Under the pieces are notes generated by a model. The model ran no database searches, was not told the origin of the DNA, and saw only the letters and a list, made by a program, of their open reading frames with translations. DNA of 64,000 bases from Candidatus Aenigmatarchaeota archaeon. Its GTDB lineage: Archaea; Aenigmatarchaeota; Aenigmatarchaeia; QMZS01. Every line of letters begins with the position of its first letter. Positions within the stretch are counted from its first letter, which is position 1. Location of the stretch: contig JAFGCN010000007.1 of assembly GCA_016932615.1 (NCBI GenBank), positions 1 through 64,000 of the forward strand, given 5' to 3'. The position numbers and the translations under genes are program-made. This document shows positions 16,424 to 46,120 of the stretch, one piece after another.

Positions 16424-17503
16424 TTAAGCCGAAGCATATCTCAGTATACCCCCAACACCCCCAATATTCTTGAACTGCACTCCTTCCGGCGTCGAGTTCG
16501 ATATGAGCTCGCACCTGGCTCCAGTCTCCGAACAGAGGTCCTCGACTACCCCAAAATTATCGAAATCGTCAGAGACAAGAACTACATCGACGCTTCCGTC
16601 CCGAAGCGCTTCAATCGTATCATGCTCGCCATAGACAACTTCCCCCTTGCCCTTGCTGAGCTTGACAAAAAACTCCTTAAGAATGTTTAACTCCCTTGTA
16701 ATCTCTGCCTGCTGAATCAGGTCTTTTCCCCTCTCCAGGGTTTCCCTGATGCCCTGCATGTCAGTGTAAGCTGTGTCCACAACCCCGATTACCTGCTTTG
16801 CCAGGTCATTAGGGAGGTGTTCCTCATTTAGAAATTTCTCTTTGATAGGGCCGGGGCCCGAAATAATGATTCCCTTAAGCTCAAGGCCTTCGGCAACATT
16901 CCTGACAAGCGCGGCAGTCTTCTGCAGGTGTAGCAAGAGAAGGTTGTCGCGAACTCTCGAAAACCTTACAGAACTCTGGCCGCCGGCGCGGGTCTTTCCC
17001 GGAACAAGGGAGTCGATATGGTTTTTTATCGTGATGTTCTTTCCTGAAACAAGCGCAATTGTCGCCTCGCTCTTGTCAAGGCATACAATCATATAGTTGT
17101 CCTTTTCCCTCACAACTTCCTTGAGCGGCTCTGTTTTAAATGTCTGGCCGCACCAGTAAAGCTTGACTCTTATTGGCTCAGGAGGGACAACCATCCAGAG
17201 CTTTATGTCCTCCTTTCCCTCTTCCTGGGACGTATTTCCGCAGAATATCGCAAGCCCATTTTCCGGAAGCTTTCCATACAGCTTAAGCTCCTGTGAGATT
17301 CTTTCAAGCGCGGAAAGCACGTTTTTTCGCACGGTTTTGTTCTTGACGTTCCTCGTAAGCGCCTGCTCCTGGGCAATCAGGCCTGCCGCCTTGTTGAAGT
17401 CGCTTCCGGCAGGTATATAAAACGTGACAAGTTCCGTATGGCGGCCTCTTATCTTTTCAAGCTCATCTACAACCCGCTTCATCTTTAAAAGCTCCGGATC
17501 CAT
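16424..17503 (-). CDS. prf1: Archaeal peptide chain release factor aRF1
   Basis: 359 residues. The GGQ motif (174-176) that triggers peptide release and the stop-codon-reading YxCxxxF motif (YWCGQTF, 116-122) are present. The NIKS motif is altered to NVKN (52-55). The C-terminal domain ends in the typical GGVGGILRY. The protein is shorter than the roughly 410 residues usual for aRF1, and the missing part falls in the C-domain minidomain. It recognises all three stop codons in archaea. It may be the sole or a divergent copy. Confidence 0.85.
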   Translation of the reverse strand: MDPELLKMKRVVDELEKIRGRHTELVTFYIPAGSDFNKAAGLIAQEQALTRNVKNKTVRKNVLSALERISQELKLYGKLPENGLAIFCGNTSQEEGKEDIKLWMVVPPEPIRVKLYWCGQTFKTEPLKEVVREKDNYMIVCLDKSEATIALVSGKNITIKNHIDSLVPGKTRAGGQSSVRFSRVRDNLLLLHLQKTAALVRNVAEGLELKGIIISGPGPIKEKFLNEEHLPNDLAKQVIGVVDTAYTDMQGIRETLERGKDLIQQAEITRELNILKEFFVKLSKGKGEVVYGEHDTIEALRDGSVDVVLVSDDFDNFGVVEDLCSETGARCELISNSTPEGVQFKNIGGVGGILRYASA

Positions 17504-26285: not shown

Positions 26286-28148
26286 ATGGATTATATCAAA
26301 GTCGTTGAGCAAAATCTCCCTGACGTTAGCGACGCCAGGATACACTACGAGGGAAGCAAGATTGTCGTATACACGAGAAATCTCAATTTTTTCCTCACAG
26401 GCGAAGACAAGATAAGGGGGATTGTGGACCAGATTAAAAAAAGAATAGAGGTAAGAATAGAGCCGGACACACTCCCTTCAACTGATGACACCATAAAGAA
26501 AATAAAGGAGATTATCCCAAAAGACGCAGGAATTGAAGACATTTCATTTGAGCCGGATTTCTCGAAAGTCATAATAAGCGTGCGCCAGCCGCAGATTGCA
26601 GTTGGCGAAAGCGGGGAGACCGTAAAGGAGATAAAAAAGGAAACGCTATGGATTCCATTTGTCCAGAGAGTCGCTTCCCCAAAGTCCGTGCCTGTCGAAG
26701 CCATAAGGAAAGTTTTGTATGAAAGCTCGAAGTTCCGGAAGAAATTCCTTAATGACGTCGGAAAGCAGATTTACAGCGCTGAAAACAAGGACACCAAATG
26801 GGGGCGCGTATCCTGCCTTGGCGGAAGCAGGGAAGTAGGAAGGTCATGCTTCCTCCTCCAGACCCCAAACTCAAAAATACTAATGGACTGCGGTCTGTCT
26901 ACTGGCGCAACAGGGGAAGACCAGTACCCCATATTTCTCAGCGGCGAGTTCGACATAAACTCGCTTGACGCAATAATCCTGAGCCACGCGCACCTTGACC
27001 ACTGCGGATTTATCCCTTACCTTTACAAAATGGGCTTTAACGGGCCTCTCTACTGCACTACCCCCACAAGGGAGCTTGCAGCCCTCCTCCAGATGGACAC
27101 GATAGACATAATGCAAAAGGACATGGGAAAAAGCCTGTACACTTCAACTGACATAAAGAACATGATTAAGCACACGATACCGCTCAAATATAAGGAGATA
27201 ACTGACATCACTTCCGACATCCGGCTTATTTTCGAGAACGCAGGGCACCTCCTTGGAAGCGCAATCACCCACCTCAACATTTCAAATGGAAAAAGAAACC
27301 TTATCTACACCGGTGACATCAAGTATTCTGTCTCAAACCTTCTTGACCCTGCATTCACCCAATTCATGCGCTGCGAGTGTTTGATAATGGAAAGCACTTA
27401 CGGCGGGCCTAATGACCTAACGCCTCGGCTTGAAGACGCAGAAAAGGACCTTGTTTACGCAGTCGAGGAAACCGCAAAAAGAGGCGGAAAAGTTTTGATA
27501 CCAAGCTTTGCGGTTGGAAGAGGCCAGGAGATAATGATAATACTTGACAAGTATGGAATAGACCTTCCGGTTTACATCGACGGAATGATTTGGGATGCGT
27601 CATCCATACACTCGACTTACCCCAAGTACCTGTCCTACAAGCTTCAGAGGCAGATTATAGAGGAAAACAAAAACCCATTCGAGTCGGACAAGTTCATCCA
27701 TGTTGCAAGCAGAAAGGAGCGTGACCAGGTAATCGCAGACCAAAAGCCATTTGTGGTCCTGGCAACCTCCGGCATGGTAAACGGCGGGCCGATTATGGAA
27801 TACATAAAGAAATTCGGCTCCGACCCTAAAAACACGCTTGTTTTCGTCGGTTACCAGGCGGAAGGCACGATCGGGAGAAAAATACAGAGAGGCGACAAGG
27901 TCATCGAAACCCCTGACGGCGAGCAGGTCGAAATCAACCTCCAGATAAAAACTATAGACGGGCTTTCCGGCCACTCAGACAGGAAACAATTGCTAAATTA
28001 CATCGGCCACCTGAAGGAAAAGCCGCAGCGGCTTGTAGTAGCCCACGGCGAGATGAGTAAGTGCGTCAACTTCGCGGATGCTGCAGGCAAGATTTTCGGG
28101 ATAGATGCAATAGCGCCGTGGAACCTTGAGACATTCAGGTTTTTGTAG
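26286..28148 (+). CDS. fttA: FttA (aCPSF1) KH-metallo-beta-lactamase-beta-CASP ribonuclease
   Basis: 620 residues. Residues 1 to about 180 are two KH-like RNA-binding domains; the zinc site SHAHLDHCG is near residue 233; later GHLLGSA, YTGD, the beta-CASP segment with SFAVGRGQE, and the C-terminal GLSGHSDRKQ and VAHGE motifs complete the nuclease. FttA cuts nascent transcripts to end transcription and is found in nearly all archaea. The gene ends exactly where the convergent RNase J-like gene ends. Confidence 0.95.
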   Translation: MDYIKVVEQNLPDVSDARIHYEGSKIVVYTRNLNFFLTGEDKIRGIVDQIKKRIEVRIEPDTLPSTDDTIKKIKEIIPKDAGIEDISFEPDFSKVIISVRQPQIAVGESGETVKEIKKETLWIPFVQRVASPKSVPVEAIRKVLYESSKFRKKFLNDVGKQIYSAENKDTKWGRVSCLGGSREVGRSCFLLQTPNSKILMDCGLSTGATGEDQYPIFLSGEFDINSLDAIILSHAHLDHCGFIPYLYKMGFNGPLYCTTPTRELAALLQMDTIDIMQKDMGKSLYTSTDIKNMIKHTIPLKYKEITDITSDIRLIFENAGHLLGSAITHLNISNGKRNLIYTGDIKYSVSNLLDPAFTQFMRCECLIMESTYGGPNDLTPRLEDAEKDLVYAVEETAKRGGKVLIPSFAVGRGQEIMIILDKYGIDLPVYIDGMIWDASSIHSTYPKYLSYKLQRQIIEENKNPFESDKFIHVASRKERDQVIADQKPFVVLATSGMVNGGPIMEYIKKFGSDPKNTLVFVGYQAEGTIGRKIQRGDKVIETPDGEQVEINLQIKTIDGLSGHSDRKQLLNYIGHLKEKPQRLVVAHGEMSKCVNFADAAGKIFGIDAIAPWNLETFRFL

Positions 28149-30396: not shown

Positions 30397-33306
30397 CTAT
30401 TTCCCCAAACTCTCCTCGACAATCCTGATTTCGTCTTCGGTTAATCCGTAGAGCTTGTAGACGAGAGAGTCGATTTCTTTATCTGTGGTTTTGATTTCCT
30501 CCTCGATTTTCTTTCTCTCGTCAGTGATTTTCTCTCCCAATTCATTTAGCCGTTTGTTGAGGGAGAGCATCTTAGTCGCTAAAGACACAAAATCATTATG
30601 GACTTTAAGATTGTCTTGGTTATTCAAGTCAATAGTAGGAAAACAGAAGGGATTTAAAAACTCAGGAGTTAATCTATAAGCATTACCTCTCAAAGCAGTA
30701 CTTGTATTGGATATAAAAAACCAGAACAATTTTGAATTTAAAATAGCCAAATATAGCAAGGGGTTTTGTCCCTTTACTCTTTCGCTAAACACTACGCTGT
30801 GGATAGCGGGGCCATGATAAAAATTTCCTTTTTCGTCGTAAGTTATCCTGTTGCTGATCAGCATATCGGGAACCATTATCTTTGGCTTACTATATTCTGG
30901 CAAACTGCGTGCTGCCGAATACTTGTAGAAATTAGTCGCATCCGTCTCAATCTTCCTAATTCCTAACGCTTCGCTTAAACCATTCAGGTATCGATAGCCC
31001 ATGGGATATTTTACTTTCATTTCTTGGGGGGTGAATAACTGCATCTTACTATTTGTCAAGTGATATGGGAACAATAATCTTTTTTTACTTTCCAAGGTTG
31101 CATATCTACGCACATCTTCTCCATAAACAAAAGGTTTAAGCAAAGATTTTTCAATCTCTACATTTCTATTGAGTTGCTTTGAAAAAACAGTCGAGGTATC
31201 TTTATTTTCTTTCACAAGGTCAAACAGAAATATGTCATCATTGCCTGTTGAAGAACCCTTGAATATCTTTTCGGTAATATCCAAAAATGAATTTTTATGA
31301 GATTTTATTTTAGATATTATCTTTTGAGTATCATCACTGCCAAAATTCCATTTGTTTTCTTTCAACAACTCAACGCTCTTTCTTTCAAATTCGATATTCT
31401 TCAAGTCAGTAAAGTCTTCCCCTAAAGAAAATTTCTTGTATAAAAAAGTATCATTTTTCTTCTTTGATAGGAATAGTAGGCATGTATAAGTGGCTGCATC
31501 TTCGAAAACTTGATTTGTAGTAAAATCTACAATTTTATGAAGAGACTTTGTCTCATAAATATATTTCCGGATATTTTCTCCCATTTCTCCTTGAAAGAAT
31601 TTATGGGGTAAAATTAGCCCGACTAACCCCTCTTCCTTTACTAAACTGAGTGCCTTTTCAATAAACAGAATGTAGATGTCATAATTCTTCGTGGGAGATT
31701 TGTAGTTGTTATTGAAGTAATCAACATCTTTCTTGTCAAGAGTCTGGATTCTGATATATGGCGGGTTCCCAATCACAACGTCAAACCCGCCTTCCTTCAT
31801 AACATCCTTGAACTGCTCGCTCCACTTGAACGCCTTGTCGCCTGCAACTTTCTCGTCGTCTATAAGGGAGTTTCCGTTCCTTATGTTTTTCTGCAAAGTG
31901 GGAAGGCGCTTTCCCTTCTCGGTGATTTTGAGAAGCAGGTTTAACTGGGCGATTTCAACGGCCTGCTTGTCAAGGTCCACCCCGAAAATATTGTTTTCAA
32001 GGATTTTGACTTTCCGGGAATAGGTCGCCTCAAGCCCGTCTGACAGGTCAAGCTTCGACTGGGCTTTTGCGGCCTGTCTTTTGGAATAGCAGCCATGCAA
32101 AACGTCATACGCCTTAATCAGAAATGATCCGGAGCCGCAGGCCGGGTCAAGAACCCTTATTTTCTCTATATCAACGTTCTTGTCTTTAAGGAGTTCGCCC
32201 AGGGTATTTTTGACAATGTAATCAACAATGTAAGTCGGGGTGTAATAAATTCCCTGCTCCTTGCGTTTCGCCTTGCTCTCGGTTAAGTTAGCCCTTTTGG
32301 CGGTTTTCTTCAGGATGTGGCCAAGATACTGCTCGTAGATATTCCCCAAAATATCCGCCTCGATTGCGGCAAAGTCGTAGGAAACAGAGCGGTCTTTCGT
32401 GGAGTAAAGCCCCTCGATAACCTCCTTCCAGGCATCGTCATCGATTTCAAGCTGGTCGCAGAGGTGCCCCTCAAAAAACCTGCTGTCATACTGGGCGTTA
32501 TAATACCCAAACAGCTCCTTGACGCTCCGGTCAAGGCCTCCCCTGCCGCTGCTTTGCCATTCCCTAAGCCGGGAAATAAGTTCCTTTCCCTCAAGCCCCC
32601 TGTCTTCAGAGCTTCGGATAAATATCATCCGGTCAAGCAATCTTTGCACCGCCTCGTCAAGCTCCTCTTCGCTCACATTAAGCTTCTGGTTTTGCTTTGT
32701 GGCATTTTTCGACAAAAGCTCTCTGAAACGGGTAAAGTCAGAAAGAAGCTGCTTGTCAATCGATATTTTCTTGGTCTTCTTTCCCCACCTCTCAGCTTCC
32801 TTGTCCAGAAGCCCTTTCTCAAAGCTTTCCTTTGAAAGCATCCACAGCCGGCCAAAATCCTCAAGGAAGCTTTCAGAGTAGAGCTCCATGAACTGCGAAT
32901 GAAGGGGGTTTACGATTTTGACCTCGGCATTTAATATCTTTATCTCCCGGAAATTCGTCAAAACTGCCCAGGTGCAGCCCTTGTGGTAAGCGTAATTCAC
33001 CGCCTGCTGGATAAACTCGGGCTTGTTTATGTCCTCCTTAAAGGACTTTGCCTCAAGGAAAAACTTCGGCACGCCCTTAATGCGAAATCCATAGTCCGGC
33101 CTTTTTTTAGCCACCTTTTCCTCACGAGTTACTTCCTCAAAATTACGAAGGTCCCAGCCCAGATACTCGAAAAGCGGCTCTATAAAGTTTGACTTCGTGT
33201 CCTGCTCCGTAAATCTGTTGACCTTTCCCTCATTTTTGGCGTCAAGGTATTTCTGAACAAGAAGCTTTACAAGGTTTTCGCTGCCGCTCTTGGTGATGCC
33301 TTCCAT
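30397..33306 (-). CDS. Type IIG-like restriction-modification enzyme
   Basis: 969 residues in one chain. The N-terminal nuclease has PD...EAK (PDYGF near residue 71 and FLEAKSF near 86), similar to type I HsdR N-domains. Then come the N6-adenine methylase motifs DPACGSGSF (near 385) and NPPY (near 513), and a TaqI-like specificity C-terminus. Such enzymes cut and methylate DNA with a single polypeptide. Neighbours are toxin-antitoxin pairs, so this is a defence island. The gene is intact. Confidence 0.88.
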   Translation of the reverse strand: MEGITKSGSENLVKLLVQKYLDAKNEGKVNRFTEQDTKSNFIEPLFEYLGWDLRNFEEVTREEKVAKKRPDYGFRIKGVPKFFLEAKSFKEDINKPEFIQQAVNYAYHKGCTWAVLTNFREIKILNAEVKIVNPLHSQFMELYSESFLEDFGRLWMLSKESFEKGLLDKEAERWGKKTKKISIDKQLLSDFTRFRELLSKNATKQNQKLNVSEEELDEAVQRLLDRMIFIRSSEDRGLEGKELISRLREWQSSGRGGLDRSVKELFGYYNAQYDSRFFEGHLCDQLEIDDDAWKEVIEGLYSTKDRSVSYDFAAIEADILGNIYEQYLGHILKKTAKRANLTESKAKRKEQGIYYTPTYIVDYIVKNTLGELLKDKNVDIEKIRVLDPACGSGSFLIKAYDVLHGCYSKRQAAKAQSKLDLSDGLEATYSRKVKILENNIFGVDLDKQAVEIAQLNLLLKITEKGKRLPTLQKNIRNGNSLIDDEKVAGDKAFKWSEQFKDVMKEGGFDVVIGNPPYIRIQTLDKKDVDYFNNNYKSPTKNYDIYILFIEKALSLVKEEGLVGLILPHKFFQGEMGENIRKYIYETKSLHKIVDFTTNQVFEDAATYTCLLFLSKKKNDTFLYKKFSLGEDFTDLKNIEFERKSVELLKENKWNFGSDDTQKIISKIKSHKNSFLDITEKIFKGSSTGNDDIFLFDLVKENKDTSTVFSKQLNRNVEIEKSLLKPFVYGEDVRRYATLESKKRLLFPYHLTNSKMQLFTPQEMKVKYPMGYRYLNGLSEALGIRKIETDATNFYKYSAARSLPEYSKPKIMVPDMLISNRITYDEKGNFYHGPAIHSVVFSERVKGQNPLLYLAILNSKLFWFFISNTSTALRGNAYRLTPEFLNPFCFPTIDLNNQDNLKVHNDFVSLATKMLSLNKRLNELGEKITDERKKIEEEIKTTDKEIDSLVYKLYGLTEDEIRIVEESLGK

Positions 33307-36745: not shown

Positions 36746-38449
36746 TCAGAAATACCTTGGCTTCCTTTTGTGGTACTTGGTATGAAGAAGCTTTTCGGCT
36801 TTTTTGCTTAGCGGCTTTCCCAGGAAGTCCTTGTAAAGCGTCTGGATGTCCGGGTTGTGGCTTGAAATTCTTATGGAAAGCCCCTTATCTTCCTTGTAAA
36901 GCGCCTCCATTCTCTTGAGCCGAATCTCATTTGTAGTGGGCCTCGGCTGACCACCGCCCCCGATGCATCCGCCAGGGCACGCCATGACCTCGATAAAGTG
37001 ATATTTCTTCCACTGCCCGCCGTCGAAAAACTTCCTGATGTTTCCTAAGGTGTGGACAATAGCAACCTTTATGCGCTCTCCGGCAATAGAAATTTCCGCT
37101 TCCCTGATTCCATCGAGCCCGCGAACAGAAGTAAAGTCCAGCTTATTCAGGGATTTTCCGGTAAGCTCCTCATAGGCAACCCTTAGCGCCGCCTCCATCA
37201 CGCCGCCAGTGACTCCAAAAAGGGCGGCCCCTCCGCTTGAAGAGCCAAGCGGCGTGTCGTAATCCCCGTCAGGCAACTTTGAAAATTCTATTCCCTTGGA
37301 CTTAATGACCCGACCAAGTTCCCGGGTAGTCAGAACAAGGTCAACATCCGGCGAGCCGGTTGTCCTCATTTCGGGCCTTGCCGCTTCAAGCTTCTTTGCA
37401 ACGCACGGCATTATCGACGCCACGAAGATACCTTTAGCATCTTTTCCAAGAAGCTTTGCGTAGTAATTTTTGGCTACTGCCCCGAACATCTGCTGTGGCG
37501 ACTTGCATGATGAGATATGCTTAAACAGATGCGGGTAATTCTGCTCGGCAAAAACAATCCAGGAAGGGCAGCAGGAAGTAATAAGCGGCAGGTTTTTCTT
37601 CTTTTTGTACCTCTCCAGAAATTCATTTGCTTCCTCCATTATAGTAAGGTCTGCCGCAAAGTTCGTGTCAAACACCTTGTCAAAGCCAATTTTTTTAAGG
37701 GCGGAGACCATCTTTCCCTTTACCAAAGTGCCTGGAGCCATGCCAAACATCTCGCCTAGCGACGCCCTGACCGCAGGCGCGGTCTGCACTACATAAAACT
37801 TTTTCTTGTGCGAGATATCCAGTGCCATCTCATCTATCGTTCTTACAAGCTTTTCGCTCAGCGCCCTTTCCCGGAGAGCGGTTGTCGGGCAGTAGAGCGC
37901 GCATTGGCCGCAGAAAGTGCATGGCGATTCGAGCATCGGCGTATTGTAAGGGGTGGTTATGGATGAGCAGACGCTCCGGTTCACAACATCAATGTTCTCT
38001 ATTCCCTGAATCCTGGAGCAGACCTGGGCGCACCTTCCGCAAAGGACGCAAAGCCGGCCTTCCCGCTCCAGAGGAACCGCCCTCTTGCAGGAAGAAATGC
38101 TTGAAGAGCCAAACATTGTCTTTTCTATTCCAAGCTCCCGAAAGACCTTGGTAATCTCCACGTCATTGTCGCTATGCGCATTTCCGTGCAAAAGCTCCGC
38201 ATTCAGCTTTCTTGCATCAGTCACCCGCTTCGTATGGGTCAGAACTTCCATCCCTTCCCTTACCGGAGTATTGCAAGACGTTACAAGCTTTCCGTCTGCT
38301 TCAACGATGCATATCCTGCACCGCCCTTCCGGCTTGAGGTCGGGATGGTAGCAAAGTGTAGGTATGCTTATGCCGATTCTTTTGGCAACCTCGAGAATTG
38401 TCTCTCCATCTTTTGCAAACACCCTTTTTCCATCGATTTTTACCTGCAT
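36746..38449 (-). CDS. hydA: [FeFe]-hydrogenase catalytic subunit (HydA-like)
   Basis: 567 residues. The N-terminus is a [2Fe-2S] ferredoxin-like domain (Cys33, 44, 47, 59). Two [4Fe-4S] motifs follow (Cys134/137/140/144 and 177/180/183/187). The H-cluster motifs are L1 TSCCPSW (291-297, with relay Cys293 and ligand Cys294), L2 MPCVAKKLE (Cys349) and L3 MACPGGCIGGGGQP (Cys491, Cys495). All ligands are intact, so the enzyme should be active if matured. The His-ligated cluster before residue 130 seems absent. It overlaps the HydB stop by 10 bp. No maturation genes are in the window. Confidence 0.92.
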   Translation of the reverse strand: MQVKIDGKRVFAKDGETILEVAKRIGISIPTLCYHPDLKPEGRCRICIVEADGKLVTSCNTPVREGMEVLTHTKRVTDARKLNAELLHGNAHSDNDVEITKVFRELGIEKTMFGSSSISSCKRAVPLEREGRLCVLCGRCAQVCSRIQGIENIDVVNRSVCSSITTPYNTPMLESPCTFCGQCALYCPTTALRERALSEKLVRTIDEMALDISHKKKFYVVQTAPAVRASLGEMFGMAPGTLVKGKMVSALKKIGFDKVFDTNFAADLTIMEEANEFLERYKKKKNLPLITSCCPSWIVFAEQNYPHLFKHISSCKSPQQMFGAVAKNYYAKLLGKDAKGIFVASIMPCVAKKLEAARPEMRTTGSPDVDLVLTTRELGRVIKSKGIEFSKLPDGDYDTPLGSSSGGAALFGVTGGVMEAALRVAYEELTGKSLNKLDFTSVRGLDGIREAEISIAGERIKVAIVHTLGNIRKFFDGGQWKKYHFIEVMACPGGCIGGGGQPRPTTNEIRLKRMEALYKEDKGLSIRISSHNPDIQTLYKDFLGKPLSKKAEKLLHTKYHKRKPRYF

Positions 38450-39552
38450 ACTTCAAGGAATTCTTTTTTGAAATACCTGAGCGCGCACTCAAGGTGGGTT
38501 GTCGAAAACCGCCCAAGCGTGCAGTAAGACGTGTCACGGATATCTGGCACAAGCGCCTGTATTATTTTAAGGTCAGACCTGCACGACTTCTTGTCGCGCA
38601 TTTTCCTGAGCGCTTCAAGAACGCGGAAATTTCCCTCCCTGCACGGAGTGCAATAGCCGCAGGACTCATGGACAAAAAACTCGGCAAATATCTTGGACAC
38701 TTCCGGTATGCTCCGATTCTGACCCACCACGATAAGGGCTCTTGAGCCCATCATAGCGCCGGTTCCGGAAAAGCTTTTTTCATCAAAAGGCATCTTCCTG
38801 AAATTTTTGTATGGAAGGCACCCAGCCGACGCCCCAAAATAAACTGCCTTTGGCTCCTCTTTTGGCTTTCCCATTGCGATAATCTCACCAAGGGGAGTTC
38901 CAAGCTTGGCCTCATAAACTCCCGGGGCCTGAAGGTCTCCTGAAAGGCACACAACGGTAAGCTCTGGGTTCCACGTTCCGTCAAGTATCAGGGGAATAGT
39001 TGCCAGGGTTTCGACATTGTTGACGCAGGTAGGCCGACCATTCAGACCTGCCTGAACAGGATAAGGGGGCTTCCTTCTTACGATGGGGCGGTTTCCCTCC
39101 ATGGATTCGAGAATTGCCGACTCCTCGCCGCAGAGGTACGCCCCGGCTCCAAGCACAACCGTAATCCTAAGCCCAATCTTCTTCAGCCGTGAAGAGGATT
39201 TTTTTATCTCGGCTTCAAGCTTTGGCCGAATGTAGGAATATTCCCCCCGGAGGTAAATCCACGCCCGCCGGATTCCCATTGCGTAGGCGGCAATCGCCAT
39301 TCCCTCAATAAGAAGTGAAGGATTATTTTCCATTATGAACCTGTCCTTAAACGTTCCCGGCTCGCCCTCATCCGCATTGCATACAAGGTAGCGCTCGCCT
39401 TTTCCCATCGACTCCCACTTCTGTCCCGTAGGATAATTCGAGCCGCTTCTGCCGCGAAGCCCTGACTCCTTTACCAGCCCTATAACCTTTTTCGGGCTTC
39501 TCTTGAGCGCTTTTTCATAGCCCCTCCAGCAAGTGTTAGTTAGCAGTTGCAT
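38440..39552 (-). CDS. hydB: NuoF-like hydrogenase subunit (HydB core)
   Basis: About 370 residues. The FMN/NAD region GRSGSNYPTGQKW, the NADEGEPGT motif, GAGAYLCGEESA, and the [4Fe-4S] motif CGYCTPCREGNF match NuoF/HydB. The thioredoxin-like N-domain and the C-terminal ferredoxin domain of bacterial HydB are absent, so this is a minimal core. I chose the ATG at 39552 over a TTG at 39558. It lies 2 bp after the NuoE-like stop. Confidence 0.9.
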   Translation of the reverse strand: MQLLTNTCWRGYEKALKRSPKKVIGLVKESGLRGRSGSNYPTGQKWESMGKGERYLVCNADEGEPGTFKDRFIMENNPSLLIEGMAIAAYAMGIRRAWIYLRGEYSYIRPKLEAEIKKSSSRLKKIGLRITVVLGAGAYLCGEESAILESMEGNRPIVRRKPPYPVQAGLNGRPTCVNNVETLATIPLILDGTWNPELTVVCLSGDLQAPGVYEAKLGTPLGEIIAMGKPKEEPKAVYFGASAGCLPYKNFRKMPFDEKSFSGTGAMMGSRALIVVGQNRSIPEVSKIFAEFFVHESCGYCTPCREGNFRVLEALRKMRDKKSCRSDLKIIQALVPDIRDTSYCTLGRFSTTHLECALRYFKKEFLEVCR

Positions 39553-39554
39553 AT

Positions 39555-40001
39555 TCAATCAAGCCCGGCAAGAATCTGCCGTATTTTTTCCTCAGTAAGG
39601 TTCGTGTAAACCTTGCCGTCAACCATCATTGAGGGGGCCTTGTCGCACTGCCCAAGGCATGACGCCTTCTCAAGCGTGAATTTTCCGTCGGTTGTCGTAT
39701 CTCCAAGCTTCACCCCCAGCTCTTTTTTAAGAAAGTCAAGAAGCGTGAAGGACTTATTCAGGTAGCAGGAAGGGCTCCCACAAACGCGTATAATATGCTG
39801 TCCGCACTTTTTTGTCGGAAGAAAAGCATAAAAGCTGGCAACCCCATAAAGCTTTGCTAAAGGCATTCCAAGGCCACGGCTTACCTTGTCAAGCTTTTCA
39901 AAAGAAACATATCCCTCCTGCCGGACAATCTCCTCAAGAACGGTTAAAAGCTCGATTTCGCCATTCCTGCAGGATTTGATGAGCAAATCCAGTTTCCCCA
40001 T
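39555..40001 (-). CDS. hydC: NuoE-like hydrogenase subunit (HydC)
   Basis: 148 residues, thioredoxin-fold [2Fe-2S] subunit: VCGSPSCYL and a later ASCLGQCDKAP supply the four Cys. First gene of the hydABC operon; a TATA-like box (tttaataat) lies about 15-20 bp upstream. Together the three genes form the set known from trimeric NAD(H)-linked or electron-bifurcating [FeFe]-hydrogenases. Confidence 0.9.
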   Translation of the reverse strand: MGKLDLLIKSCRNGEIELLTVLEEIVRQEGYVSFEKLDKVSRGLGMPLAKLYGVASFYAFLPTKKCGQHIIRVCGSPSCYLNKSFTLLDFLKKELGVKLGDTTTDGKFTLEKASCLGQCDKAPSMMVDGKVYTNLTEEKIRQILAGLD

Positions 40002-40077
40002 AAATTAGTAAATTATTAAAGAGTTCCCAGGAAGTCAAAAATTACTGCTTGCCATAAAATGACTTGTGGTCTATATT

Positions 40078-40903
40078 ATGCTTCCTATAACGCTTAGGCC
40101 CTGCCCCAAAAAGCATAGCTATGATCTGGACAAAGCAGAATTGCCTGAAGTTACTCTCAAAAGAGTCACTCATGCGCTGGAAACCCTGGACTCAGAAGTC
40201 AGCCTGGAAAATCTTGAAAGCAAGGAAAAACTTTGGGTGTACCGGGCAGTCTCAAAAAAATTTCTAGATATCGACCCGCCATACATCCGCTGCGGGAGGT
40301 CACACGGAAAAGGGGTGACGCAGGTACAAGCAAAATGCAGTGCCCCGATGTAGCAGGTCGAAAGAATAAATGCAAAAAACGTCATGCAGAACCTTGTAAG
40401 AGACCCGGAAACCTTGTTTGAGGCGTATGAAGGGCTCCCTAAAGAGTCGTCTATTCCAATCAGCCAACTGCTTTCCTATGGCTACCACCCTTCATTTTAC
40501 GCTCCCAATGCAGGGCAAGTCTTTAGGAAAAAGAAAATGATGTTCATGAAGGTCCACTGCCTGACAGACAAAACTGAAAAATACCTGCCGCTTTTCTGGC
40601 ATCTCTATTTTTACGGAACAAATGGGTTTGCTTCCGGGAACACTTACGAAGAAGCGGTTCTTCGGGCGCTTTGCGAAGTTATCTAAAGACATAATAAGAT
40701 AGAAACCAGAAACAGGTACTTGGAAAGAAAGGAGATTTGGCTTGATTCCCACCAGGAGATTATCTCAGGTCTTCTCAGCAACCTGAACGCCTGGGGGTTC
40801 AAGCCCATCCTTGAAGAGTGGAGCCGCCCGATACCAGTCCCCACTATCCAATGCAGACTCGGGTACAAGGCCGGATATGGCACATACCCCAAACCAAACT
40901 CCA
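40078..40903 (+). pseudogene. YcaO-domain protein, inactivated by two nonsense codons and 3' truncation
   Basis: One reading frame from ATG 40078 matches the intact YcaO proteins at 41169 and 44924 up to about 40900. In-frame TAG at 40351 replaces the Glu of the MEWVER motif, and TAA at 40684 replaces the Glu of the EVIERHN motif; both are ATP/Mg-binding Glu positions. No frameshift is present. After about 40903 homology stops and the DNA belongs to a minus-strand zinc-ribbon gene. Roughly the last 120 residues are missing. Confidence 0.85.
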
Positions 40904-41074
40904 TCAGATCTTCAAATTTATCTCCTTTAGCTTCTCACGCACAATCGGCGCGCACTCCTGGCATACCCAGCACTCATCCTTTCCAATCGAGGTCTTCTTT
41001 ATTATCTGGAGCCGGCCGTTCTTTGTGGGCTTGAACCTTTGCCCGCAAAGTTCGCATTTATGAAGCTTTAGCAT
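40904..41074 (-). CDS. Mini zinc-ribbon protein (56 aa)
   Basis: 56 residues: CELCGQ near the start and CWVCQEC in the middle give two CxxC knuckles, with a basic linker. It is below the length of usual ORF calls. It is divergent from YcaO at 41169, and its stop abuts the truncated end of the YcaO pseudogene. A similar tiny zinc ribbon (44737-44883) is divergent from the other intact YcaO gene. Confidence 0.75.
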   Translation of the reverse strand: MLKLHKCELCGQRFKPTKNGRLQIIKKTSIGKDECWVCQECAPIVREKLKEINLKI

Positions 41075-41168
41075 AATAGATTAAAGAGTTAACCTATAAA
41101 GTACCGGACATTTCCGGTTTGCCTAGTGACCTCCACTACACTAACTGCTTAGCTTGCATATATATTTT

Positions 41169-42356
41169 ATGCAACAAATAATGCTGGAAGCTTGTCCCAA
41201 AAAATACACCTATGATCAAGACAAGGCAGAATTGCCCGAAAAAACATTGGAAAATGTACTAGGCATACTAAAAGACAGACATATAGAAGTAGAATTCAGG
41301 GAAGTCCAAAGCCTACTGGGAATCCCGTTTTACAAGTTGATGTCCACCGACCCCGAACGAAATTACTCCTCATATCTATTTTCAGGCAGCTCTTCTGGAA
41401 AAGGATCAACGCGCTTCCAGTCAAAATGCAGCGCCCTTATGGAGTGGGTCGAGCGAGTAAACGCAGGGCAAATCCCAACTAGACTACTCAACAGCGAAGA
41501 GATGGTCCATTGCAGCTATAATGAACTCTGTACAAACTCCAGAATCGCCCCGAAAGAAATGCTGTCCTACAGCTTCCACCCCTCATTTAAAAGCAATGCC
41601 TCAGAAGAGATACTGAGACATAAAAAAATGCACTACCTGAAGTTCCAGTGCCTTTCCGGACAAGAGGGGGCATACCTTCCAATATTCTGGCACCTGTATT
41701 TCAACTGCTCAAACGGACTTGCTGCAGGGAATACTTATGAGGAAGCAATCCTTCAAGCATTGTGTGAAGTCGTAGAGCGTAATAATGTCATTGAAACAAG
41801 GCTGAGAAATCTAAAATATCGAAGAGAAATAGTGCTAGATACCGATTATAAGCCCTTGAGAGATATGTCTGAGGTGCTTCACAAACAAGGAATAACCCCC
41901 ATTATAGAGGACTGGAGTTGTCCGATACCAATACCTACAATGCACTGCCGATTTGGACCCAGAGCGGGCTATGGAACCAGCACTAGCCCCATAAAGTCTG
42001 CCATAAGAGCGATAACTGAAATGGTTCAGGACTATGCGATAAACGAAAAACACTGCCTTCCGCCGCAGGAAAATATAATCTATCCTCCGGCGGATAAAAA
42101 GATAGAGCTAAGCAAAATAAAAAGTCTGGAAAGGCAGGATATCCTTTCAGAGATAAAGGAAATCGTCAGCACCCTTAATTCCATGGGGTACCAGACCTAT
42201 GTCAGGGACATCTCCCTACAGATACCTGTGCCTACGGTTCTGGTGGTTGTTCCTGGGCTTAAATGCTATGATTTCAGAAATCAAGAGAGGCATCTTCTGG
42301 ATTTTAAGAGCAACCTTGTCCAGTATTATAACGATTACCTCATATACCTGCGCTAA
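41169..42356 (+). CDS. YcaO-domain ATP-dependent cyclodehydratase/thioamidase-like protein
   Basis: About 395 residues. The ATP-site motifs SALMEWVERVNAG, ALCEVVERNNVIE and AIRAITEMVQ match YcaO enzymes, which activate peptide amide bonds with ATP to make azolines or thioamides. There is no fused E1-like or TfuA partner. I chose ATG 41169 by alignment with the paralogues, which have eight residues before the first Cys. A TATA box (catatatatttt) is 6-12 bp upstream, so the start could also be 41181. The substrate is unknown. Confidence 0.85.
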   Translation: MQQIMLEACPKKYTYDQDKAELPEKTLENVLGILKDRHIEVEFREVQSLLGIPFYKLMSTDPERNYSSYLFSGSSSGKGSTRFQSKCSALMEWVERVNAGQIPTRLLNSEEMVHCSYNELCTNSRIAPKEMLSYSFHPSFKSNASEEILRHKKMHYLKFQCLSGQEGAYLPIFWHLYFNCSNGLAAGNTYEEAILQALCEVVERNNVIETRLRNLKYRREIVLDTDYKPLRDMSEVLHKQGITPIIEDWSCPIPIPTMHCRFGPRAGYGTSTSPIKSAIRAITEMVQDYAINEKHCLPPQENIIYPPADKKIELSKIKSLERQDILSEIKEIVSTLNSMGYQTYVRDISLQIPVPTVLVVVPGLKCYDFRNQERHLLDFKSNLVQYYNDYLIYLR

Positions 42357-44923: not shown

Positions 44924-46120
44924 ATGAAGCCAATCGTCCTGAAAAAATGCCTAAAGAAATATACCTACGACACCGACAAGGCAGAAACGCCCAAAGACAC
45001 TATCGGAAGAGTGACTCGGGTCCTAAAGGGGCAAGGACTAAATATCGTCTTCGAAAAGCTGGAAAACAGGGCAAATATTCCCGTCTACCGCGTAGTTTCT
45101 GCCGATCCTTCCAAGGATTATTCTTCCCTAGTCTTTAGCGGAAAGGCGCACGGAAAAGGTGCGACTGAAAGCCAGGCGAAGTGCAGCGCTCTTATGGAGT
45201 GGGTGGAACGAGTAAATGCTGGAAACGCAATACGCCTGCTTGCAAAAGACAAGGAAACAATCTTCAGGGCTCATGAAACTATCCCTTCAGAATCCACTAT
45301 AGATATCAAATATATGCTGTCTTACAGCCATAACCCTAGCTTTTATGGGAAAAGTGCAGAAAGGATTATCAAACGCAAAAAAATGCATTTTATGAAAGCT
45401 TACTGCCTTACCGATAAACGGGAGAGATATCTACCATTTTTATGGCACCTGTACTTCAATGGGTCAAATGGGCTTGCCTCAGGAAACACTTACGAGGAAG
45501 CTGTTCTTCAGGCGCTTTGTGAAGTTATCGAAAGACACAATATTGTGGAGATAAAGACATTAAATTCAAAAGTAAACGCTATCGAGCTAGGCTTTCCCTG
45601 CAAGCCCCTCGCAGAAATGCTTTCAAAAATCCAGGAAGTTACTGCAAGACCAATCATACAAAAGTGGAGCCGCCCGATACCAGTCCCCACTGTCGCCTGC
45701 AGGCTACACGATAGCACTGGATACGGAACTGCTCCAAGCCCAGCAAAAGCAGCCATGAGAGCCATAACAGAAGCCATACAAGAAGATACCGCTACGAGAC
45801 GGTATGGACAAGATAGTGCCACAATCAAGATTGAGTCACAAGAGCCAATACCTCTCAGCAGTATGGAAAGCCTGGAGAGGGAAGATCTGTATGATGAGAT
45901 TAATGAAATCTCAAGGATTCTTGAGTCCATGGGGCATATGATATATGTTATGGATTTCTCCTCAATCGTCCCCATACCCACTGTCGAGGTGATTGTGCCT
46001 GGACTCAGGTCTGTCGACTACACTGGAAGAGATCGCCACCTACGGGAATTTCAGTCTTGCCTTATTGAGTATTTTAACCTCGTAGCAAGCTTACCTCAGT
46101 GGAATATTTTAACCGCTTAG
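44924..46120 (+). CDS. YcaO-domain ATP-dependent cyclodehydratase/thioamidase-like protein
   Basis: 398 residues, the closest paralogue of the protein at 41169. The motifs SALMEWVERVNAG, ALCEVIERHNIVE and AMRAITEAIQ are intact. A TATA box (aacttataag) lies about 27 bp upstream of the ATG, indicating a leaderless transcript. It lacks the C-terminal Pro-rich tail of azoline-forming YcaOs. The function could be peptide, protein or RNA modification. Confidence 0.85.
   Translation: MKPIVLKKCLKKYTYDTDKAETPKDTIGRVTRVLKGQGLNIVFEKLENRANIPVYRVVSADPSKDYSSLVFSGKAHGKGATESQAKCSALMEWVERVNAGNAIRLLAKDKETIFRAHETIPSESTIDIKYMLSYSHNPSFYGKSAERIIKRKKMHFMKAYCLTDKRERYLPFLWHLYFNGSNGLASGNTYEEAVLQALCEVIERHNIVEIKTLNSKVNAIELGFPCKPLAEMLSKIQEVTARPIIQKWSRPIPVPTVACRLHDSTGYGTAPSPAKAAMRAITEAIQEDTATRRYGQDSATIKIESQEPIPLSSMESLEREDLYDEINEISRILESMGHMIYVMDFSSIVPIPTVEVIVPGLRSVDYTGRDRHLREFQSCLIEYFNLVASLPQWNILTA

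Follow-up and report, generated by a model that had tools for sequence, protein, structure and literature searches.

Can an archaeon make use of an [FeFe]-hydrogenase when the maturases HydE, HydF and HydG are nowhere to be found in its genome? The question is raised by a three-gene operon with NuoE-, NuoF- and HydA-like genes in a 64,000-nucleotide stretch of DNA (the window; positions 1 to 64,000 of contig JAFGCN010000007.1, assembly GCA_016932615.1) from Candidatus Aenigmatarchaeota archaeon. The window comes from contig C7 in a draft genome of 1.26 Mb (29 contigs, 96.9% complete, 1.1% contaminated) that belongs to an Aenigmatarchaeota family. To our knowledge, the [2Fe] unit of [FeFe]-hydrogenases has no established source other than HydEFG. 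The reading that we prefer, to which we give a probability of roughly 0.4, is that the operon encodes an H2-making, non-bifurcating, NADH-linked complex whose [2Fe] unit would be supplied without HydEFG.

The list of open reading frames (ORFs) and profile searches place the three genes head to tail on the minus strand, from 40001 to 36746, with the following parts:

39555..40001, minus strand: NuoE/HydC-like gamma subunit, 148 amino acids, thioredoxin-like [2Fe-2S] protein (PF01257, 3.3e-42) with the cysteine pattern CGSPSC...CLGQC
38440..39552, minus strand: NuoF/HydB-like beta subunit, 370 amino acids from the ATG (PF01512, 3.5e-42; PF10589, 1.4e-20)
36746..38449, minus strand: HydA-like alpha subunit, 567 amino acids (PF02906, 5e-96; PF02256, 4.7e-23; Fer2_4, PF13510)
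37559..37579, minus strand: H-cluster motif L1, TSCCPSW, HydA residues 291-297, by alignment to CpI
37385..37411, minus strand: H-cluster motif L2, MPCVAKKLE, residues 347-355, in which C349 is CpI C355 and K352 is CpI K358
36944..36991, minus strand: H-cluster motif L3, EVMACPGGCIGGGGQP, residues 487-502, in which C491 and C495 are CpI C499 and C503
38138..38188, minus strand: place of the missing His-Cys3 [4Fe-4S] site, approximately HydA residues 88-104, by alignment to CpI

The mechanical ORF call starts NuoF at a TTG at 39558, whereas the homologues use the ATG at 39552, and the NuoE/NuoF junction is accordingly a 2-nt gap with the ATG start or a 4-nt overlap with the TTG start; the overlap between NuoF and HydA is 10 nt. 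A scan for promoters and terminators around the operon returned no relevant signal above chance.

The alpha subunit carries the three motifs of a group A HydA with every cysteine ligand; the numbering and roles of CpI residues, as applied to HydA positions here, are those that we take from general knowledge of CpI. Its AlphaFold model (predicted local distance difference test score, pLDDT, of 84) matches HydA of the bifurcating A3 complex HydABC of Thermoanaerobacter kivui (PDB 8A6T) with a template-modelling (TM) score of 0.91, and this closest solved HydA (584 bits) shares both the hydrogenase fold and the motifs, including TSCCPSW. The second Cys of TSCC was not used as a test, because a Ser stands there in most bacterial relatives, as it does in the Acetobacterium woodii HydA in the PDB. 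The protein consists of a [2Fe-2S] domain, two [4Fe-4S] sites (C134-C144 and C177-C187), the H-cluster domain and a small-subunit domain. The preliminary description, which had announced a complete NuoE-NuoF-HydA operon with intact H-cluster ligands in a DPANN archaeon, was thus right as to all three genes, the motifs and the ligands, but the usual accessory clusters are incomplete: the His-Cys3 [4Fe-4S] site (CpI H94, C98, C101 and C107) is deleted or replaced in all ten archaeal HydA and kept in 78 of 78 bacterial ones. HydA scores 483 bits against TIGR02512, above the cut-off of 406, and its best NCBIfam profile is NF040763 ('NADH-dependent, group A6'). The archaeal complex resembles the NF040763 type in being a trimer with a short, non-bifurcating NuoF, and differs from it in that HydA stays under the curated cut-off (732 versus 765 bits) and has no His-Cys3 cluster.

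Whether such a trimer bifurcates electrons can be read from the beta subunit, for which four criteria separate bifurcating from non-bifurcating enzymes (Losey 2020, PMC7311640). The bifurcating signature comprises A or E at TmHydB position 232, M at 234, F at 367, a GGPSG motif and extra Fe-S domains. On all four criteria the archaeal NuoF falls on the non-bifurcating side, with Thr and Lys in PGTFKDR (PGAFMDR in the bifurcating counterparts), a Tyr in GAGAY where these have Phe, no GGPSG and no extra Fe-S domains. It is predicted to bind FMN, NAD(H) and one [4Fe-4S] cluster, and lacks both the N-terminal [2Fe-2S] domain and the C-terminal 2x[4Fe-4S] domain, so that its approximately 370 amino acids correspond to the core only (residues 176-555) of T. 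kivui HydB, which has 630 amino acids and the additional Fe-S domains. In the family, GRSGSN(Y/F) or a close variant of it replaces GRGGAGF as the glycine loop of NuoF. The beta subunit is therefore that of a non-bifurcating NADH-dependent trimer of the Syntrophomonas wolfei type and not that of a bifurcating HydABC (A3/Bfu); all true Bfu enzymes carry the extra B2-B5 clusters (Schut 2022, PMC9304861). As judged from its sequence, the complex is a non-bifurcating, NADH-linked trimer of [FeFe]-hydrogenase type, and the NAD(H) and ferredoxin bifurcation earlier associated with the trimeric form was not borne out.

The operon belongs to the archaeon and its relatives. A search of 115 genomes (relatives, the source genome included) for the HydA C-terminal domain found it in 11, namely nine of the 11 sampled genomes of the same family, G057 from another family, and G034. 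The order NuoE-NuoF-HydA is conserved in all nine family loci, NuoE orthologues adjoin nuoF in nine archaeal loci, and in G057 a NuoF-HydA pair lies on a 3.3-kb contig. G034 encodes a minimal 279-amino-acid HydA-like protein (L143, 6327-7166) with the H-cluster cysteines kept, and this genome likewise has no maturases. When HydA was placed in a phylogeny, as the preliminary description had proposed, the ten archaeal sequences formed one clade among bacterial sequences (support 100/100 and 100/99). Two genes on the contig are archaeal as well:

26286-28148: aCPSF1, with a profile score above the cut-off
16424-17503: three-domain eRF1-type release factor, an archaeal marker on the contig

Together with the single archaeal HydA clade, these genes rule out bacterial contamination, and the archaeal origin that had been claimed for the contig stands. 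A [NiFe]-hydrogenase large subunit was not found in the source genome, which makes the operon its sole hydrogenase candidate.

The maturases are missing not just from the window, as had been noticed before, but from the whole lineage as far as it was sampled: a search for HydE, HydF and HydG found none in the 97%-complete source genome and none over cut-off in the nine family genomes with the operon, that is, the source and its eight operon-bearing relatives. Profile searches returned no HydG match and no HydE above 25 bits in the 11 family genomes, and no HydF near the cut-off in the 115 genomes; the source genome gave zero HydG candidates. A genome with a functional [FeFe]-hydrogenase would be recognized by having all of HydE, HydF and HydG, and this combination is not seen here. 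The preliminary description had taken the operon to point to fermentative H2 metabolism and had itself named absence of the maturation genes as evidence to the contrary; with this absence found, fermentative H2 metabolism is not supported. A control genome, likely that of Thermotoga maritima, exceeded the cut-off in each maturase search and was the only one to do so for HydF, and HydG scores of 556-585 bits elsewhere in the class indicate good sensitivity. The chance that incompleteness would hide one ancestral maturase locus in all nine genomes is about 9e-8, assuming independent losses, which rules out incompleteness on these terms. The archaeal genomes are all drafts, and other DPANN phyla lie outside the sampled set.

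Other candidates for the missing genes were rejected. Adjacent HydE/HydG-type genes are found in four genomes of the class, G037 (C44, L138), G073 (C4, L139), G080 (C59, L140) and G098 (C41/C138, L141 and L142). These four have neither HydA nor a HydF over cut-off, and the pairs, being confined to genomes without HydA, are ruled out as maturases of the operon. A HydF match of 29 bits in the source genome, at C9:4895-5227, covers the GTPase part only (8-131 of 392), and all 14 control genomes match the model too.

The operon is nevertheless maintained. Pairwise ratios of nonsynonymous to synonymous substitution rates (dN/dS) are 0.06-0.15 for hydA, 0.05-0.12 for nuoF and 0.06-0.19 for nuoE in pairs with useful dS (the closest pair, with its small dS, gives 0.22 for hydA); by this measure the operon is under purifying selection. 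The catalytic pocket is largely preserved: eleven positions known from CpI (A230, E279, E282, S319, C300, C355, K358, F417, M497, C499 and C503) do not vary among the nine family HydA, and C299 and P231 are kept in eight of the nine, genome G003 having C299S and P231S; G007 carries R286S.

A bacterial clade mirrors this situation. The genomes holding the closest bacterial HydA (46-51% identity), used as a control, were expected to be uniformly HydG-positive, but HydG was present in only 10 of 25 (one partial), and it is this discrepancy that led to the result on Clostridia. HydF exceeded the cut-off in 21 of 50 bacterial genomes (22 rows, some genomes being split) and HydE was found in 20 of the 50, with a further partial case, the two sets agreeing with each other. 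Presence of HydE and HydF follows the residue at CpI position 325: none of 27 loci with His have them, and 21 of 23 loci with Gln or Met do. His occupies this position in 27 of 27 maturase-less Clostridia and four of the nine archaea of the family, and in 0 of 21 maturase-bearing relatives. The 27 H325 loci form a single clade (100/99) within Clostridia, in genomes of 1.2-2.0 Mb. The association between H325 and maturase loss represents two or three evolutionary events and not 27 independent ones; the completeness of these genomes is unreported, and the argument for a gap in Clostridia therefore rests on the count of 27 of 27. In the H domain F270T is fixed along with Q325H in all 27 where others have F at 270 and Q or M at 325, and there are some less striking changes too. 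The proton-path residues are unchanged in the 27 Clostridia, with E279, E282, R286, S319, M353, K358, F417 and M497 kept in all that were examined. Those of their NuoF proteins that were examined have the long, bifurcating form (loci L039-L111, bifurcating-type HydABC without HydE and HydF), from which it follows that a trimer need not be non-bifurcating to show the maturase gap. The gene families confined to the H325 bacterial loci resemble general genes, as judged from sequence starts without a database search. Tentatively, we suggest that the complexes of both lineages hold an active-site metal centre not made by HydEFG, which may be the normal [2Fe] unit obtained by an unrecognised route or a different centre, with Gln325 often replaced by His.

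In the H2-making complex that we propose, NADH would first reduce FMN in NuoF, by homology, and electrons would then pass from the NuoF [4Fe-4S] cluster through the [2Fe-2S] and two [4Fe-4S] clusters of HydA to the [4Fe-4S] half of the H-cluster site. The pocket would still run proton/H2 chemistry (NADH + H+ -> NAD+ + H2 at low H2 pressure), with a [2Fe] subcluster from a source other than HydE, HydF and HydG, possibly a maturation pathway that goes unrecognised, or import from a partner cell. Conservation of the proton path favours this reading, and the hydrogenase fold, the purifying selection on all three genes, the non-bifurcating beta subunit, the operon's standing as sole hydrogenase candidate and the bacterial lineage with the same residues kept count for it as well. 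Several observations weigh against it. We know of no biochemically proven maturase-independent [FeFe]-hydrogenase. No conserved neighbour gene presents itself as an alternative maturase, the operon alone being common to the window neighbourhood and the other family loci, and among the 14 radical S-adenosylmethionine (SAM) proteins in a census of the source genome, including TYW1, an AmmeMemoRadiSam enzyme, a MiaB-like enzyme and HxsB/HxsC-like proteins, none scores as HydE or HydG at a useful level. Within the family, four of the nine HydA have Q325H and two have changed M353 (M353T in G003 and M353V in G007). The HydA of G003 (L137, 1-1635) combines P231S, R234G, C299S, M353T and G418E with an Fe-S part nearly identical to that of its sister, and in the pair G001-G003 dN/dS is 0.19 in the H domain versus 0.04 in the Fe-S part (Fisher p 0.006, uncorrected, one of ten pairs, the G003 gene being at a contig end), which gives a hint of H-domain relaxation in G003.

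A real possibility is that the [2Fe] subcluster has been lost and that the complex is not a hydrogenase, with electrons from NADH passing through the Fe-S chain to the [4Fe-4S] cluster or another metal in the pocket (held by His325 where present) and on to an acceptor such as rubredoxin/rubrerythrin or ferredoxin. The absence of HydEFG, here in two unrelated lineages, favours such a changed function together with His325 and a rubrerythrin gene that lies downstream of hydA, in the same orientation, in precisely those four family genomes that carry H325 (L130 11139-11720, L131 10702-11274, L132 5112-5662 and L133 3695-4267; one member identified by Pfam, the other three by clustering with it); F270T in the Clostridia and the seemingly relaxed H domain of G003, next to a constrained Fe-S part, fit as well. 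However, E279, E282, S319, K358, M497 and F417 are invariant in both the nine family archaea and the maturase-less Clostridia, which would be odd for an empty pocket, and the window HydA keeps Q325 and has no adjoining rubrerythrin. An ordinary NADH-dependent hydrogenase whose maturases were missed, being too divergent or on an element lost in binning, seems unlikely: the genomes are draft assemblies and the generic GTPase domain of HydF means that weak matches are not all excludable, but the high HydG scores elsewhere in the class, the lack of any HydG candidate in the source genome and the minute chance of hiding one conserved locus nine times under independent losses all speak against it. 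Least probable is a bifurcating group A3 HydABC, as assumed both in the preliminary description and, for its trimeric DPANN enzymes, in the 2021 Woesearchaeota paper; the trimeric layout and the closeness of HydA to the T. kivui enzyme would agree with it, but the beta subunit fails to do so on every criterion and lacks the binding domains for the B2-B5 clusters.

The archaeal operon itself is not new, since trimeric group A [FeFe]-hydrogenases of DPANN archaea, Aenigmarchaeota included, were published in 2021 (Huang 2021, PMC8421398). The trimers of Woesearchaeota and other DPANN described there have the same gene layout, and Aenigmarchaeota HydA falls in the same DPANN clade; the difference is that they were called bifurcating A3, and HydE, HydF, HydG and maturation are unmentioned in the main text. 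S. wolfei, in contrast, has known HydEFG genes, which served for expression. As a precedent for an H2-making enzyme without HydEFG one may cite Entamoeba invadens, for which a published table gives [FeFe]-hydrogenases and no maturases (PMC4967309); HydA is kept there and the maturases are absent, as in the archaeon, but the enzyme is eukaryotic and not a NuoEF-HydA trimer. No description of a maturase-less HydA from archaea or Clostridia was found in the open literature, a coverage that leaves out Greening et al. 2024, and priority is not established. That study (Cell 187:3357) reportedly deals with archaeal [FeFe]-hydrogenases, DPANN included.

Some further features of the window and the genomes were observed. 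Divergent from the operon, on the plus strand at 40066-41034, lie short ORFs in different frames that together look like a disrupted YcaO gene; intact YcaO genes come next, at 41154-42356 and 44924-46120. At 30397-33306 on the minus strand lies a gene for a 969-amino-acid adenine methyltransferase resembling BREX PglX, with scores far under the family cut-offs. On contig C9 of G000, at approximately 113-133 kb (L155, L156, L158, L162, L163, L164 and L167), a radical SAM cluster with an HxsB over cut-off and three HxsC-like proteins suggests, by its gene content, that this DPANN archaeon has a peptide-modification system of the His-Xaa-Ser type.

Where hydA by itself is taken as evidence of H2 metabolism, a common practice with genomes from metagenomes, the conclusion can be misleading. 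Whether archaea are able to make the H-cluster in the first place was asked by Schut et al. 2022 (PMC9304861), and an enzyme that is under selection without known maturases, and that is mirrored in a bacterial clade, makes this question directly testable.

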